Source: Microlunatus soli (GTDB lineage Bacteria; Actinomycetota; Actinomycetes; Propionibacteriales; Propionibacteriaceae). Taken from it: 64,000 bases of DNA. Positions within the stretch are counted from its first letter, which is position 1, and each line of letters begins with the position of its first letter. Below the pieces are notes generated by a model that ran no database searches, was not told the origin of the DNA, and saw only the letters and a list, made by a program, of their open reading frames with translations. Positions 9,716 through 56,939 of the stretch are shown here, in pieces. Location: assembly GCF_900105385.1 (NCBI RefSeq), contig NZ_LT629772.1, positions 62,001-126,000 of the forward strand, given 5' to 3'. Made by a program: the position numbers and the translations under genes.

Positions 9716-9755
9716 CTGAGCTTGTCGAAGGACCCGTGCCCTTCGACAAGCTCAG
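9716..9755. repeat. Dispersed 16-bp palindrome
   Basis: CTGAGCTTGTCGAAGG (9716-9731) and CCTTCGACAAGCTCAG (9740-9755) are perfect inverted arms with an 8-nt loop. It is the cleanest copy in this window. It lies in the 446-nt divergent gap 9508-9953 between the ATPase gene and sepH. The rest of that gap shows no gene; it should hold both promoters, which I could not pin down. Confidence 0.85.
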
Positions 9756-19021: not shown

Positions 19022-20650
19022 ATGACGATGTTCGAATCTCGTTCCCTGACCCGTCGCGCGCTGCTCGGCGCCGGCGCGGCGGTCGGTCTGTCCGGCGCCC
19101 TGGTCGGATGCTCCAACGAAGGACGCGGCGGGACCACCGGGGCCAACGATGTCGCTTCGAAGTCGAAGGTCCGCCCGGCCTACATCCCCTACCAGGGTGT
19201 CAAACCCGACATGTCCGGGGCCGAATACAACATCCCCGACGCCTTCAACACCTACCCCGCCGACCCGGTCCAAGCGACCACCGAGCCACCGGGCGACGGC
19301 AAGCCGATCAAGGTGATGACCTACACCAACACCCCGATCCCGCCCAAGCTGTCCCAGAACAAGTTCTGGCAAGAACTCAACAAACGGGCCGGCTCACCGA
19401 TCGAAGTCAATCTGACGCCGTCGGTCGATTACAACCAGAAGTTCGCCACCGCCGTCGCCGGCGACAAGCTCGGTGAACTGTTCATGATCGGTGGCGTCCC
19501 GCAGAAACCGCAGATGCTCGCAGCCAAGGCCGTCGACCTCACACCCCACCTCGCCGGCGACAAGATCAAGAAATACCCCTTCCTGGCCAACCTGGACGAC
19601 ACCAGCTGGAACTCCGCGATCTTCGACGGCAAGATCTACGGCATCCCGATCCCGCGCGGCGCCATCAGCTCGCAGGCGCTCTACGCGCGCAAGGACATCC
19701 TCGACGCGCAAGGACTTTCGGCTGAGCTGAAGAACGCCGAGGAGTTCCTCGAGCTCTGCAAGGCGGTCAGCGACAAGCGCAAGAACCGCTTCGCGCTGGC
19801 CAACGTGCCGACCCAGTTCGTCCGCAACATGTTCTCCATCGCCAACGGCTGGACCGAGGAAGGCGGCAAGCTCGTCACCAACCTGGAGGACCCGGCACAG
19901 GAGGACGCCCTGGCGTTGCTGGCAAAGCTGTGGAAAGCCGGCTACATCCACCCCGACGCCTTCGCCAGCCAGAACCAGGACATGAAGACCCGCTTCGGCA
20001 ACGGCACCTGTCCGCTGGTGTTCGACACCTTCAGCGGCTGGCCGGACTACTTGCCGATCATGGACAAGGAAGCGGAGATCACGATCATCGCGACGCCGGC
20101 ACACGACGGTTCCGGCGTCGGCAAGACCTGGATCGGCGGCCCGACGATCTCGGTCACCGGCATCAGCAAGAAGGCCGAGGACCGGGTCGAGACCCTGCTC
20201 AGCTATCTGAACTGGCTCGCGACCCCCTTCGGCACCAGCGAGTACCTCTTCCGCAAGTTCGGGATCGAGGACGTCGATTACACGATCACCGACGGCAACC
20301 CGGTACTCACCGACAAGGGGTTCAGCGAGACCCAACTCGGTTTGAAGTATCAGGCGGACGGTCCGTGGACGATCTTCCTGCCCGACCGCACGGGCAGTGC
20401 TCAGGCCTGCTTCGACGCCATGAAGAAGATCTGCCCCGACGCCCTCACCAACCCGGTCGCCGGCATGTACTCCGAGACCGACAACCGTAAGGGCGGTCAA
20501 CTCAACGAAGACATCGGCAACATCACCGACGACATCATCCAAGGCCGCAAACCCGTCTCCGCCTGGGCACCCGCAGTCAAGAAATGGAAGGCCGGCGGCG
20601 GCGACAAGATCGCCGACGAACTCTACGCAGCACTCAAATCCTCCCGCTGA
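19022..20650 (+). CDS. Extracellular solute-binding lipoprotein, LplA/LipO type (copy 1)
   Basis: 542 residues. The N-terminus SLTRRALLGAGAAVGLSG carries a twin-arginine-like signal, and ALVGCSN is the lipobox, so the mature protein is anchored by Cys outside the membrane. The body has the family 1/LipO binding-protein pattern (IKVMTYTNTPIPPKLS, KSGY-type segment LAKLWKAGYIHPDAFA, FDTFSGWPDYLPIMD). It delivers an oligosaccharide to the permeases upstream. The start ATG has GAGAGG 10 nt upstream. It is closely paralogous to the next gene. Confidence 0.92.
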   Translation: MTMFESRSLTRRALLGAGAAVGLSGALVGCSNEGRGGTTGANDVASKSKVRPAYIPYQGVKPDMSGAEYNIPDAFNTYPADPVQATTEPPGDGKPIKVMTYTNTPIPPKLSQNKFWQELNKRAGSPIEVNLTPSVDYNQKFATAVAGDKLGELFMIGGVPQKPQMLAAKAVDLTPHLAGDKIKKYPFLANLDDTSWNSAIFDGKIYGIPIPRGAISSQALYARKDILDAQGLSAELKNAEEFLELCKAVSDKRKNRFALANVPTQFVRNMFSIANGWTEEGGKLVTNLEDPAQEDALALLAKLWKAGYIHPDAFASQNQDMKTRFGNGTCPLVFDTFSGWPDYLPIMDKEAEITIIATPAHDGSGVGKTWIGGPTISVTGISKKAEDRVETLLSYLNWLATPFGTSEYLFRKFGIEDVDYTITDGNPVLTDKGFSETQLGLKYQADGPWTIFLPDRTGSAQACFDAMKKICPDALTNPVAGMYSETDNRKGGQLNEDIGNITDDIIQGRKPVSAWAPAVKKWKAGGGDKIADELYAALKSSR

Positions 20651-20705: not shown

Positions 20706-22349
20706 TTGACGATGATCCCATCCCGGGCCGCGACCGGTCGGACGCTGACCCGTCGGGCGCTGCTCGGTGCCGGCACGGCTGTCGGCCTGTCCGGCGCCCT
20801 AGCCGGTTGCTCCAACGAGGGACGCGGCGGGACCACCGGAGCCAACGACGCCGCCTCCAAGTCGAAGGTCCGGCCGGCCTACATCCCGTACCAGGGTGTC
20901 GAACCTGACATGGCCGGCGCCACAATCGGCATCCCGGACGCCTTCAACAAGTATCCGGCCGAACCGGTGCAGGCGATCGACGCTCCGCCCGGCGACGGCG
21001 AGCCGATCAAGGTGATGACGTTCACCAACACCCCGATCCCGCCGAAGCTCTCCCGCAACGACTTCTGGCAGGAGTTCAACAAGCGAGCCGGCTCACCGTT
21101 GGAGCTCGATCTCACCCCGTCGGTGGACTACGACAAGAAGTTCGCCACCGCGGTCGCCGGCGACAAGCTCGGTGAGTTGTTCATGATCGGCGGCATCCCG
21201 CAGAAGCCGCAGATGCTGGCCGCCAAGGCCGTCGACCTCACACCACACCTGGCCGGCGACAAGATCAAGAAATACCCGTTCCTGGCCAACCTGGCCGATG
21301 CCAGTTGGAATGCGGCGATCTTCGACGGCAAGATCTACGGCATCCCGATCCCCCGCGGAGCCATCAGCTCCCAGGCGCTCTATGCGCGCAAGGACATCCT
21401 CGATGATCTTGGACTGTCCACCGAGCTGAAGTCCGCCGACGACTTCGTCCAACTCTGCAAGGAACTCAGCAACAAGCGCAAGAACCAATTCGCGCTGGCC
21501 AACGTGCCGACCCAGTTCGTTCAGAACATGTTCGGCATCGCCAACAGTTGGACCGAGGAGGGCGGCAAGCTGGTCAGCAATCGGGAGGATCCGGCGCAGC
21601 AAGATGCGCTCGCCCTGCTGGCCAAACTCTGGAAGGCCGGCTACATCCACCCCGACGCCTTCGCCAGCCAGAACCAGGACATGAAGACCCGCTTCGGCAA
21701 CGGCACCAGTGCGCTGGTGTTCGACACCTTCAGCGGCTGGCCCGGCTATCTGCAGACGATGCCGCAGAACGCCGAGCTCGCGGTCATCCCGACGCCGGCG
21801 CACGACGGCTCCGGCGTCGGCAAGACCTGGCTCGGCGCACCGACGATCGCGGTCACTGCGATCAGTAAGAAGGCCGAGGACCGGGTCGAGACCCTGCTCA
21901 GCTATCTGAACTACCTCGCCACGCCGTTCGGCACCAGCGAGTACCTGTTCCGACGGTTCGGCATCGAGGGTGTCGATCACGAGATCTCCGACGGCAATCC
22001 GGTGCTGACCGACAAGGGGCTGAGCGAAACCCAGCTCTCCCTCGGTTATCAGGCCGACGCGCCGTGGGCGATCTTCCTTCCCGACCGCACGGGCAGCGCT
22101 CAGGCCTGCTTCGACGCCATGAAGAAGATCTGCCCCGACGCCCTCACCAACCCGGTCGCCGGCATGTACTCCGAGACCGAGAACCGTAAGGGCGGTCAAC
22201 TCAACGAAGACATCGGCAACATCACCGACGACATCATCCAAGGCCGCAAACCCGTCTCCGCCTGGGCACCCGCAGTCAAGAAATGGAAGGCCGGCGGCGG
22301 CGACAAGATCGCCGACGAACTCTACGCAGCACTCAAATCCTCCCGCTGA
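20706..22349 (+). CDS. Extracellular solute-binding lipoprotein, LplA/LipO type (copy 2)
   Basis: 547 residues from TTG 20706. That start is supported by GAGAGG 10 nt upstream, exactly as in copy 1, and by alignment of its MTM start; ATG 20712 is the alternative. Twin-arginine-like TRRALLGAG and lipobox ALAGCSN match copy 1. The protein is very similar throughout. The last 260 nt or so are almost identical in DNA to copy 1 (only two differences seen), while upstream parts differ at many synonymous sites. A recent conversion or a local selection for identity is likely. The two may bind related sugars. Confidence 0.92.
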   Translation: MTMIPSRAATGRTLTRRALLGAGTAVGLSGALAGCSNEGRGGTTGANDAASKSKVRPAYIPYQGVEPDMAGATIGIPDAFNKYPAEPVQAIDAPPGDGEPIKVMTFTNTPIPPKLSRNDFWQEFNKRAGSPLELDLTPSVDYDKKFATAVAGDKLGELFMIGGIPQKPQMLAAKAVDLTPHLAGDKIKKYPFLANLADASWNAAIFDGKIYGIPIPRGAISSQALYARKDILDDLGLSTELKSADDFVQLCKELSNKRKNQFALANVPTQFVQNMFGIANSWTEEGGKLVSNREDPAQQDALALLAKLWKAGYIHPDAFASQNQDMKTRFGNGTSALVFDTFSGWPGYLQTMPQNAELAVIPTPAHDGSGVGKTWLGAPTIAVTAISKKAEDRVETLLSYLNYLATPFGTSEYLFRRFGIEGVDHEISDGNPVLTDKGLSETQLSLGYQADAPWAIFLPDRTGSAQACFDAMKKICPDALTNPVAGMYSETENRKGGQLNEDIGNITDDIIQGRKPVSAWAPAVKKWKAGGGDKIADELYAALKSSR

Positions 22350-34941: not shown

Positions 34942-35003
34942 CCTGAGCCTGTCGAAGGGGCAAGAAAGCTGATCATCGCCACCGGTCCTTCGACAAGCTC
35001 AGG
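34942..35003. repeat. Dispersed palindrome between convergent genes
   Basis: CCTGAGCCTGTCGAAGG (34942-34958) and CCTTCGACAAGCTCAGG (34987-35003) are arms with one mismatch and a 28-nt spacer. It fills the gap between the convergent permease and formylglycine-enzyme genes, and its right arm contains the stop codon of the latter. It is likely to act as a bidirectional terminator. Confidence 0.85.
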
Positions 35004-43461: not shown

Positions 43462-43520
43462 CCGACCCGTCGATTCCTCCCCGTTTTCGTCGGCGTGTCG
43501 GGGAGGAACTGACGGCTCGG
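43462..43520. repeat. Left hairpin repeat of DUF559 unit 1
   Basis: CCGACCCGTCGATTCCTCCCCG (43462-43483) pairs with 43499-43520 over 22 bp with three mismatches and a 15-nt loop. It begins 3 nt after the stop of the topoisomerase gene. The whole element is close to the reverse complement of the element at 44677-44735, including the loop (TTTTCG...GTGTC). Confidence 0.9.
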
Positions 43521-43611
43521 CGGGTTGTGGACAACGCACCCGGGTCGGGAGCTGTTCGAAGCACTGTCCACAGGCAGGACCGGCCGGTCGGATTCGGCCG
43601 AGTGTGTGGGT

Positions 43612-44619
43612 ATGAGGACCACTCACACGGCAGCGGAATCCGCGCAGGGCCGGCCGGAGACGCTGGTGTCTCCGCTCCCCGAGATCGACCAACTGGACCT
43701 GCCCGCCGGAATACCCTTCACCCGGGCGATGGCGATCGGCTACGGGATCGGACCGAATGTGCTCACCCGTCTGGTCCGGCAAGGTGTGCTGCGACGCGTC
43801 CTGCGGGGCGTCTACGTCGACAACGCCGTGCCGGACGGCATCGGTCTCCGGTCCCAGGCGATCTCGCTGGCGATCCCGAGCGATGCGATCGTCACCGACA
43901 GCACGGCGGCCTGGCTGTACGGCGCCGACGTACGGCCCCGTGGTGCGCACCTGCGTGAGCCGGAGGTGCACTGCTTTCGCCCACCGGGTCGCAGCCGCGT
44001 CCGTCGTCCCTCCGTGAACGGCGGCGAACGCACCCTGTCCGAACGCGACATTCAGATCGTCCACGGGATCACGGTGACGTCGCCACTCCGTACGGCATGC
44101 GATCTCGGCCGGCTGATGGCCCGTGACGACGCGATCGGCGCCCTGGATGCGATGTTGCGCCATGGGAATTTCGATCAACAGGAGCTCATCGGCGAGGTGC
44201 GGCGGTTTCGCGGTTACCGCGGCGTCGTTCAGCTTCGCGAGTTGGTTCGCTGGGCCGATGGAACGTCCGAGTCGATGGGCGAATCGACACTGCGACTGCG
44301 TTGGATCGACGAAGGGCTGCCGTCGCCCGAACTGCAGATCGTCGTGTCTCCGACCGGCCGGTGGCAACGCTATCGGCTGGACCTCGGTATCCGTCGGGTG
44401 CGTTACGCAGCCGAGTACGACGGGGACGATTGGCACTCGACCGAGGAACAGGTCGCCGCCGACCGAGCACGCGACGAAGATCTCGCTGCCGACGGGTGGA
44501 TCGTCGACCACTTCCGACGGGGTGAGGTCTACCACAGTCGGGCCAACGTGGTCGGCAACCAACTCCGTGCCGGCCTGCGCCGAGCCGCCCGGAGGTCCGG
44601 TTCCGCCGCCGGCCGGTAG
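43612..44619 (+). CDS. AbiEi-like/DUF559 predicted nuclease, unit 1
   Basis: 335 residues from ATG 43612 (an earlier in-frame start at 43525 lies near the repeat). The N-terminal third has a winged-helix AbiEi-like region (FTRAMAIGYGIGPNVLTRLV, GVLRRVLRGVYVDN) and a middle region with AWLYGADVRPRG and TVTSPLRTACDLGRLM. The C-terminal 120 residues fit a DUF559/Vsr-like PD-(D/E)XK fold: GESTLRLRWIDEGLP (Glu), RLDLGIRRVRYAAEYDGDDWH (Asp and E-x-D) and RDEDLAADGWIVDHF. Nuclease activity is predicted from these residues, not known. No antitoxin/toxin partner lies beside it; instead the gene is bracketed by inverted hairpin repeats. Confidence 0.82.
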   Translation: MRTTHTAAESAQGRPETLVSPLPEIDQLDLPAGIPFTRAMAIGYGIGPNVLTRLVRQGVLRRVLRGVYVDNAVPDGIGLRSQAISLAIPSDAIVTDSTAAWLYGADVRPRGAHLREPEVHCFRPPGRSRVRRPSVNGGERTLSERDIQIVHGITVTSPLRTACDLGRLMARDDAIGALDAMLRHGNFDQQELIGEVRRFRGYRGVVQLRELVRWADGTSESMGESTLRLRWIDEGLPSPELQIVVSPTGRWQRYRLDLGIRRVRYAAEYDGDDWHSTEEQVAADRARDEDLAADGWIVDHFRRGEVYHSRANVVGNQLRAGLRRAARRSGSAAGR

Positions 44620-44676
44620 CTCCTGATTCAAAGCCGACAACCGGACGCTGATGCCTGATCACCCCACCAACCGCCG

Positions 44677-44735
44677 CCGACCCGTCAGTTCCTCCGCGAC
44701 ACACCGCGAAAAGCGGGGAGGAACTGACGGGTCGG
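44677..44735. repeat. Right hairpin repeat of DUF559 unit 1
   Basis: CCGACCCGTCAGTTCCTCC (44677-44695) pairs perfectly over 19 bp with GGAGGAACTGACGGGTCGG (44717-44735); between them are GC, GACACACCGCGAAAA and GCGG. It is inverted relative to the element at 43462-43520 and lies 9 nt before the end of the oligopeptide-type binding-protein gene. Confidence 0.9.
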
Positions 44736-44743
44736 CGGGTGGG

Positions 44744-52823: not shown

Positions 52824-52894
52824 GGTGTCACGCAGCGCCCCGCGGTGACGAGGGGTGGATCCGCTGAAAACATGCGAGATCCTGCTACCAGAGC

Positions 52895-52954
52895 CCTGAC
52901 CTTGTCGAAGGGCTGGTACTCGGTAGGGGCTACCGGTCCTTCGACAAGCTCAGG
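52895..52954. repeat. Dispersed palindrome downstream of topoisomerase B
   Basis: CCTGACCTTGTCGAAGG (52895-52911) and CCTTCGACAAGCTCAGG (52938-52954) form arms with one mismatch. An extra GCAAGCTCAGGACGCTTGCG follows at 52961-52980, itself a short hairpin ending at the topoisomerase stop codon. It probably terminates transcription of that gene. Confidence 0.85.
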
Positions 52955-52980
52955 ACTCTTGCAAGCTCAGGACGCTTGCG

Positions 52981-55651: not shown

Positions 55652-55693
55652 CGACCGCCGCGCTCCCGGGGATTCCCGGGACCGCGGCGGTCG
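55652..55693. terminator. Long GC-rich hairpin after DUF7455 gene
   Basis: CGACCGCCGCG (55652-55662) pairs with CGCGGCGGTCG (55683-55693). Inside, CCCGGG-GATT-CCCGGG continues the stem after a mismatch. It lies 54 nt after the stop, which suits a terminator without a U-tract. Confidence 0.7.
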
Positions 55694-55754: not shown

Positions 55755-55816
55755 ACCGAATGTGAGCTGGTGGCTGCCGGATCGCTCGGTGCTGCAGCCA
55801 TACGCTCACATTCGGT
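55755..55816. repeat. Left hairpin repeat of DUF559 unit 2
   Basis: ACCGAATGTGAGC (55755-55767) pairs with GCTCACATTCGGT (55804-55816). Inside, TGGCTGC (55771-55777) pairs with GCAGCCA (55794-55800). It ends 8 nt before the stop of the DUF559-type gene and carries the same arm sequence as the hairpin at 56859-56913. Confidence 0.9.
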
Positions 55817-55823
55817 CGGGTTG

Positions 55824-56789
55824 TCAGCGGTAGCCCCACCAGTCGGGTTGTGCCCGGGTCCACCGGTCACGGCTGCGGTCCCGGGCCTGTCCGCGACGGT
55901 AGCCGTCCTGCAGCCGGGCGACGAACTGAGGGCGATGGCGGGTCAGATCGAGGCTGTCACAGCGACTGACGGTCACGCCGGCCGATTCCAGTTTCTCCTC
56001 GCGGACGTTGTCCTTGCGATGCTGTTCACGGTCGCGGTGTTGCTTGCCGTCGAACTCGGTTGCGAACGCTGCCTCAGGATCGAAGAGGTCGGGCTGGCCG
56101 AGAAACGATTCGCCGTCGAACAGCGGCACGTTCAGGAGTGGCTCCGGAAGCCCGGCGTCGTGGAGGTAGCAGACTCGCAGGATCGACTCCCAAGGGCTGC
56201 GGACGCCGGTCCGGCCGAGCGCGATCGCCGCCCTGGCCTGCCGGACCCCGCCCATCCTCGGATGGCGGCGGCAGTAGTCGAGCAGCGCACGCGGGTCGAC
56301 TGCAGCCTGCGTGAGCATGGCGTCGACGAAGACCACCGCCTCGGACAGCGTCGGCGCCCAGCGGGCACCGTCGAAGGTCGTCCGGACCGGTGTGGTGACT
56401 CGCATTCCGTACCGCAGGCAGGTGTCGTCGTCGGAGACCCGGGTCGCGCGGTAGCGCACGGTCGGTCTGTCAAGCCTCCTCGGGCCGATGCCGTCGACAG
56501 CGAGAGTGCCGTCGGAGTCCCGGCTCCTGCCGTCCAGCCAGCCCGCGCCGTGCAGGTAGCCAGCGGCCCAGCCTCCGATCACGCCGCCGCCACTGGCGAC
56601 GGCGGCCCACGCTTCGGCGATCCGCTGGCCAGGCGAATCCGACATCGTGTCGGCCGGCAGGTAGAAGCCGCGTTCGGTCCGGCGCCACCGACGACCCCGG
56701 AGGACGGCTCGTGTGACTCCCGCCGACGTCAGCTCCCGGAACGATCGGGGCACCTCGACCTGCCGGAGCTCGCGCGCAGTCCCTGCCAT
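55824..56789 (-). CDS. AbiEi-like/DUF559 predicted nuclease, unit 2
   Basis: 321 residues. Like unit 1 it has an N-terminal winged-helix-like region (FRELTSAGVTRAVLRGRRW, RTERGFYLPAD), a middle part with GWAAGYLHGAGW and RVTTPVRTTFDGAR, and a C-terminal DUF559/Vsr-like nuclease fold: SPWESILRVCYLHDAGLPEP (Glu), LGQPDLFDPEAAFATEFDGKQH (Asp and E-x-D/K), KDNVREEKLESAGVTVSRC. The pattern of core motifs equals that of unit 1 although the proteins are quite divergent. No toxin/antitoxin partner gene is adjacent. It is oriented toward DUF7455 and bracketed by its own palindromes. Confidence 0.82.
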   Translation of the reverse strand: MAGTARELRQVEVPRSFRELTSAGVTRAVLRGRRWRRTERGFYLPADTMSDSPGQRIAEAWAAVASGGGVIGGWAAGYLHGAGWLDGRSRDSDGTLAVDGIGPRRLDRPTVRYRATRVSDDDTCLRYGMRVTTPVRTTFDGARWAPTLSEAVVFVDAMLTQAAVDPRALLDYCRRHPRMGGVRQARAAIALGRTGVRSPWESILRVCYLHDAGLPEPLLNVPLFDGESFLGQPDLFDPEAAFATEFDGKQHRDREQHRKDNVREEKLESAGVTVSRCDSLDLTRHRPQFVARLQDGYRRGQARDRSRDRWTRAQPDWWGYR

Positions 56790-56858
56790 CCCCTCAGCAT
56801 CGCGGCCGCACCAGCCCTGCCCACCGAGTTATCCACACGGGCGGCGGATGCCGGCACA

Positions 56859-56913
56859 GAATGTGAGCTGATGGCTGTCAGGCCAACGGAGTGACAGCCA
56901 TCAGCTCACATTC
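56859..56913. repeat. Right hairpin repeat of DUF559 unit 2
   Basis: The 22-nt arm at 56859-56880 starts GAATGTGAGCTGATGGCTG and pairs perfectly with 56892-56913 around an 11-nt loop. It is the longest perfect palindrome noticed in the window. It shares GAATGTGAGCTG and TGGCTG with the left copy, and lies 69 nt upstream of the gene start. Confidence 0.93.
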
Positions 56914-56939
56914 GGGGCCGATACAGGCCGAGACGCAAA

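Follow-up and report, generated by a model that had tools for sequence, protein, structure and literature searches.

A nuclease-like gene between gene-specific palindromes in Microlunatus soli, a probable REP/RAYT-like two-part system with an unrelated enzyme

Introduction

A gene enclosed by two copies of its own palindrome raises the question of whether gene and palindrome form one system, and of what kind. REP-like palindromes with a cognate gene have so far been tied to HUH transposases (RAYTs); the gene considered here, termed unit 2, is a nuclease-like gene of Microlunatus soli. The window, the whole stretch of DNA that was analysed, has 64,000 nucleotides and is part of a 6.73-Mb single-contig genome; it holds a second gene of the same family, unit 1, with another palindrome. 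The closest known layout is that of the REPtron, in which REP elements occur together with a RAYT gene flanked by two copies of the repeat, the repeat being gene-specific (as described in PMC3733652).

The unit 2 locus

The features of the window on which the argument rests are the following.

43462..43520, no strand: unit 1 left hairpin (hairpin scan; dispersed family)
43612..44619, plus strand: nuclease-like gene of unit 1, 335 aa, of the unit 2 family but with a different palindrome (homology, profiles)
44674..44738, no strand: unit 1 right hairpin (hairpin scan; dispersed family)
55652..55693, no strand: terminator-like hairpin behind the DUF7455 gene, with a hairpin at the same place in the close relatives G003, G012 and G004
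55755..55816, no strand: unit 2 left hairpin, downstream of the gene and 7 bases past its stop codon, with 23-nt arms and 3 mismatches
55824..56789, minus strand: unit 2 nuclease-like gene, 321 aa, an ORF with its ATG at 56789 and its stop ending at 55824
56829..56837, plus strand: TTATCCACA, a DnaA-box-like motif, upstream of the unit 2 gene and in reverse orientation to it
56852..56920, no strand: unit 2 right hairpin, upstream of the start codon
56937..56973, no strand: terminator-like hairpin behind the sigma-70 factor gene, with a hairpin at the same place in G003, G012 and G004

A preliminary description of this DNA had placed the unit 2 gene between two hairpins that share arms with each other and not with unit 1, the right one having a perfect 22-bp stem; the ORF and the hairpin scan bear this out. 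The left hairpin consists of arms at 55755-55777 and 55794-55816, paired at 20 of 23 positions; on the right, a perfect 22-bp core (56859-56880/56892-56913) is embedded in a 29-nt repeat that is 93% complementary. The two hairpins have 22-nt and 21-nt arms in common at 90-91% identity, and on reading neither contains a unit 1 arm. At the threshold used nine hairpins are found in the 64-kb window, against none in eight and one in two of ten first-order Markov copies; four of the nine are the flanks of the two nuclease genes. No Rfam family matches the window at gathering scores.

Unit 2 is placed between the terminator-like hairpins of the sigma-70 factor gene and the DUF7455 gene. A DnaA-box-like motif, CTGTCCACA, also lies upstream of unit 1 (window 43564-43572). 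In the upstream flanks of homologous genes the DnaA-box-like motif is found forward in 34 of 91 and in reverse in 23 of 91, and downstream in 0 of 91 both ways; the controls, taken from the same loci as the tested genes, gave 17 and 11 of 485 pieces.

Three further places of the window (9716-9755, 34942-35003 and 52890-52959) carry another REP-like palindrome with CTTCGACAAGCTCAGG arms, which forms arrays in loci L145 and L217 and has copies in or near L043 (one to either side, at 1072 and 2539), L048 and L060; an exact-motif scan of the fetched loci gave no clear pair around any nuclease gene. Separately, two adjoining ORFs of 542 and 547 aa without a Pfam match (window 19022-20650 and 20706-22349) have up- and downstream flanks that match each other, with scores of 26 and 60.

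The encoded protein

Two regions of the unit 2 protein are considered below.

56610..56789, minus strand: N-terminal region, residues 1-60, a presumed winged helix (from the secondary structure of the model, with no fold match)
55890..56207, minus strand: C-terminal Vsr/DUF559-like nuclease region, residues about 195-300 with approximate limits (sub-cut-off Pfam matches, alignments, Foldseek)

The proteins of the two units align with 29% identity across residues 26-305 of unit 2, and the N-terminal half of unit 2 matches AbiEi through PADLOC profiles only (E 7e-7, residues 35-176); Pfam AbiEi_4 is present in unit 1 and has no match in unit 2. The C-terminal part of unit 2 gives PF18741 at E 2.9e-4 and PF04480 at E 0.0048, both under the curated cut-off; the DUF559 and MTES_1575 matches score 17.2 of 20.6 and 21.3 of 38.2 bits. 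The homologs L014 and L087 pass the PF04480 cut-off. NCBIfam has no match for unit 2 and a weak AbiEi match for unit 1 (E 0.015, far under its cut-off), and PHROGs has none for either.

Residues E201, D234, E245 and D247 are invariant in three paralogs, and acidic residues characteristic of nucleases of this kind do not vary among 20 homologs. The AlphaFold2 model of unit 2 is confident, with a mean pLDDT of 92.6, and Foldseek returns nothing for it at E <= 0.001. Ranked first is PvuRTs1I (E 0.21, probability 0.94) and second the domain of the homing endonuclease I-Bth0305I (E 0.34, probability 0.97); AbaSI and NGO0050 come lower, amid unrelated low-probability matches. Judged from profiles and the predicted model, the protein bears a weak resemblance to AbiEi plus a Vsr/EDxHD-like nuclease.

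These matches bear on two other explanations. The unit could be a defence or toxin-antitoxin module, in which foreign DNA is the target of the nuclease and chromosomal palindromes serve to mark, tether or titrate the enzyme; the AbiEi profiles stem from a defence library, and the Vsr-like matches include the modification-dependent restriction enzymes PvuRTs1I and AbaSI. However, the three unit 2 neighbours scanned are the sigma-70 factor gene, the DUF7455 gene and a gyrase B-type gene, with no AbiEii toxin gene among them, and up to about 50 palindromes per genome are a better fit to a selfish element; this explanation is considered very unlikely. The palindromes might instead be ordinary REPs moved by a RAYT or other HUH transposase, as their layout is that of the REPtron described in PMC3733652; this is most improbable, since a search for the Y1/RAYT transposase (PF01797), positive in 5 of 14 control genomes, finds none in this genome, and nine family proteins scanned have no Y1 match.

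Matched repeats around homologous genes

The protein search of 20 Microlunatus genomes gave 96 places, 90 of them outside the own genome; 88 of these 90 (2 were not fetched) were used together with the nine own genes, and 5 of the 97 loci were left out because their flanks were too short, giving 92. Flanks are called matched when the up- and downstream stretches match each other at a score of at least 14; the upstream flanks of this set and of the named-genome set below were positioned by an assumed gene length of 330 codons. Matched flanks are found at 68 of 92 homologous genes, versus 12 of 736 mismatched pairings. Control genes, most of them from the loci of the tested genes and the rest from the window and the loci of solo hairpins, have matched flanks in 6 of 69, and in two of the four strongest of these matches the control gene lies between two unit 1 hairpins. 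In named genomes, mostly of other actinobacteria, 36 of 45 loci have matched flanks and cross pairs reach 3.3%; this set (45 of 46 loci, one being too short) includes Nocardioides, Marmoricola, Aeromicrobium, Blastococcus, Modestobacter, an Acidimicrobiaceae and a Chloroflexi assembly, and at least 3 of the 45 (L153, L155, L156) duplicate genes already in the genus set. These counts give good support to the argument, first made from two loci, that the gene-specific repeats do not flank their genes by coincidence. A plasmid survey with the unit 1 protein gave 2 weak records.

The further expectation, that each gene has a matched palindrome pair, is borne out at fewer genes. A small change in the gap cost leaves 67 passing pairs, of which the threshold scan finds hairpins on both sides in 29, on one side in 20 and on neither in 18, so that matched repeats are commoner in the family than clean palindromes. 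Seven of the nine genes of the own genome reach the matched-repeat score, two of them marginally (15 and 16), and four of nine have hairpins on both sides. The repeats of the 67 pairs are direct in 31 and inverted in 36, as expected of repeats without polarity; strict terminal inverted repeats were rejected on this division. A candidate universal loop motif, CGACACGC, occurs in 6 of 65 repeats against a background of 0.8 per set and is suggestive only.

Similarity of repeats and of proteins is weakly correlated (Mantel r 0.17 for 63 elements, with 0 of 2000 permutations as high; r 0.15 for 61 elements, again 0 of 2000, without two syntenic duplicates). The three closest protein pairs (77-86% identical) have kept the repeat, but two of the three are whole conserved syntenic loci, where plain inheritance explains its retention.

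Dispersal and placement of the palindromes

Arms of six palindromes were searched, and five recur away from their own gene. A search of its own genome finds the unit 2 arm at 22 places with at most 3 mismatches and at 14 with at most 2, versus 4 for the reversed pattern; apart from the pair at the gene there are five complete hairpins and a half-degenerate one. The unit 1 arm occurs at 103 places at home (reversed 0) and, in the 19 relatives, at 0-9 places per genome (reversed 0-4); the L015 family has 18 places at home and none in 19 relatives; the L071 family has 37 in G010, a lone arm within a predicted ORF of G019, and none in 18 genomes; and the family of Nocardioides daejeonensis (L179) comprises 42 arms and 21 hairpins, with none in 7 other genomes. 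For L012 no dispersed family is found: there are 13 home places, only the four gene-flanking arms pair, and relatives have 0-7. The four dispersed families searched in other genomes are nearly confined to the genome that carries them. Homologs of the genes on both sides of one unit 1 copy lie at seven loci of G003, G004, G009, G012 and G019, and no unit 1 palindrome is present there; these loci are not in full synteny, and one (L216) carries another hairpin.

In the 20 regions fetched, 18 of the 22 unit 1 hairpins lie outside predicted ORFs; 8 of 22 are between convergent genes, at positions that range from 6 bases within to 34 bases past the stop codons, and 2 of 22 between divergent genes. 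The six solo unit 2 hairpins divide into two in a convergent setting, one in a divergent and three in a co-directional one, one of the last three being inside a predicted ORF. The unit 1 hairpins are clustered: 6 of 52 neighbour distances, the pair of the gene itself included, are below 2.5 kb, versus a random mean of 1.06 with 0 of 2000 draws giving as many (based on 53 hairpin positions, some derived from one arm).

AbiEi antitoxins bind inverted repeats, and the protein may alternatively be a transcription regulator, the hairpins its operators and the dispersed copies its regulon; the AbiEi-like N-terminal half and the unit 2 hairpin upstream of the gene would agree with this. A full hairpin downstream of the gene, the placement of unit 1 and solo unit 2 copies just given, the near absence from relatives of the three families searched in the genus, and the conserved nuclease residues speak against it, and the explanation is unlikely. 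Another alternative treats the hairpins as bidirectional terminators or as structural DNA, spread by host processes, with the gene as a passenger; the hairpin shape, the many unit 1 copies close behind stop codons and the fact that some unit 1 changes fall in both arms together favor it, whereas the gene-specific matched pairs of three quarters of the homologs, against 6 of 69 other genes, and the terminator-like hairpins that both unit 2 neighbours already own make it quite unlikely.

The copies themselves differ between families. The 21 hairpins of N. daejeonensis have arm identities of 0.98 and 0.92, versus 0.47 for the loops and 0.36-0.37 for the flanks; as the arms are conserved and the loops variable, the arms are the part that is kept. 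No two of these hairpins are identical and the solo loops all differ, while the loops of the gene-flanking hairpins are alike save one base of 16. In unit 1 several copies are identical throughout, and arm changes number 19 in both arms together versus 51 in one arm or unequal; this comparison used 39 unit 1 rows, with duplicates of earlier copies dropped, and 8 unit 2 rows, with the gene-flanking pair excluded, each set including two chance matches. The idea that each unit 1 copy sits within an outer, site-specific palindrome, for instance a terminator, found little favor: own flanks exceed cross pairs only slightly in complementarity, with a score of at least 8 in 5 of 22 versus 8.9% and of at least 12 in 2 of 22 versus 0.2%.

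Two pairs of unit 1 hairpins enclose other sequences: in L115 (1174-1228 and 2622-2676) a DUF5005/DUF4185-like gene, and in L128 (1174-1228 and 1636-1690) a short ORF without a Pfam match; both hint at other cargo between palindromes.

The empty site and gene inversions

The DUF7455 gene is present in all 20 genus genomes, and the sigma gene is within reach in 11 of the 20 DUF7455 loci (9 of 20 fell short of it). Unit 2 is absent from the sigma-DUF7455 interval in 10 of 10 relatives measured, the empty site not being base-exact; the interval has 74-461 bases in nine relatives and 1161 in G004. The close relatives G003 and G012 keep both terminator-like hairpins at the site that has no unit 2. 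The G004 site (L136) contains a 229-aa ORF (493-1182) without a Pfam match, between two related imperfect repeats that carry CCCGACACGCC; the ORF is possibly a passenger. In G017 part of another family member lies beside DUF7455 at the contig edge, where the sigma gene is not reached.

Among locus pairs with both flanks conserved the gene is inverted in 6 of 11; three pairs represent one site, so that inversion is seen at 5 of 9 sites. Four of the five inverted sites (L015/L095, L045/L070, L069/L088 and L082/L091) have recognisably similar gene DNA, and in L069/L088 the conserved flanks end 38-64 bases short of the repeats. At L045, L055 and L091 no repeat pair reaches score 14. Independent insertions in opposite directions would give the same picture as inversions. 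Within each of the pairs L016/L048 and L024/L097 the members belong to different subfamilies and have a conserved flank stretch in common, hinting that insertion places are reused.

Comparison with known systems

The layout is already known from REP/RAYT systems; the enzyme is new as far as the literature was searched, and that search gave no report of DUF559 or AbiEi genes with such repeats. Like REPs as portrayed in PMC3733652, the palindromes are short, dispersed, mainly extragenic and often close behind stop codons. The cognate gene lies between two copies of the same palindrome in units 1 and 2. The family differs in that its gene encodes an AbiEi-like part and a Vsr/DUF559-like nuclease rather than a Y1/HUH transposase, in that no GTAG-type tag is seen by eye at the palindrome base of units 1 and 2, and in that the matched repeats of many members are not clear hairpins; some Nocardioides repeats have TAGTC in both arms. 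CGTC-tagged REPs without a dedicated transposase are also dispersed palindromes without a RAYT, but here a cognate non-RAYT gene is present; this contrast is drawn from their description in PMC3733652.

EDxHD/Vsr-like homing endonucleases such as I-Bth0305I are similar in the predicted nuclease fold (a weak match) and in having the gene beside the presumed recognition sequence; however, the repeats described here occur at many unrelated places rather than at one allelic site, and the unit 2 family has an extra AbiEi-like half. With AbiE type IV toxin-antitoxin systems the family has the AbiEi-like N-terminal half in common, whereas here a nuclease domain follows that half and AbiEii is not among the neighbours scanned.

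Interpretation and significance

Unit 2 is probably a member of a large family of two-part, REP/RAYT-like selfish systems with an unrelated enzyme. One part would be the gene, whose product joins an AbiEi-like portion to a Vsr/EDxHD-like nuclease, and the other a short gene-specific repeat, often palindromic; the gene is bounded by two repeat copies, with more copies elsewhere, mostly between genes, in most families tested. The association of gene and repeat and the dispersal of the repeat are observed directly in the genomes compared; recognition, cutting and spreading are what we infer from them. The protein would recognise the arms of its own palindrome and cut at or near them or at new sites; host repair would then fill the break with a copy of the palindrome, either alone or together with the gene, and recombination between two palindromes could invert or remove the gene.

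Counted against this reading are the 24 of 92 genus genes without a matched pair, the 18 of 67 matched pairs without a hairpin on either side, and L012 with its lack of a dispersed family. Nucleases of this type are not known to join DNA unaided. The solo loops of N. daejeonensis, which all differ, are at odds with copying of whole hairpins unless the copies are old; the identical copies of unit 1 contrast with this. A more specific proposal, put forward tentatively and with somewhat more doubt than confidence, is that a nuclease and not a transposase spreads its own recognition palindrome through the genome: the arms would be the site, the loop would be free, breaks in or close to the arms would be repaired from existing copies, and the gene would ride between two of them. 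The preliminary interpretation as a whole is partly supported; the dispersal, the inversions and the empty site go beyond it.

If this reading is true, the family would form a class of prokaryotic selfish element in its own right, widely distributed among Actinomycetota and comprising very many independent specificities. Matching palindrome families maintained by a non-homologous nuclease would imply that the REP-like lifestyle arose at least twice, and such systems might account for palindromic repeats without a transposase; the family would also offer many natural protein-palindrome pairs from which rules of DNA recognition could be learned.
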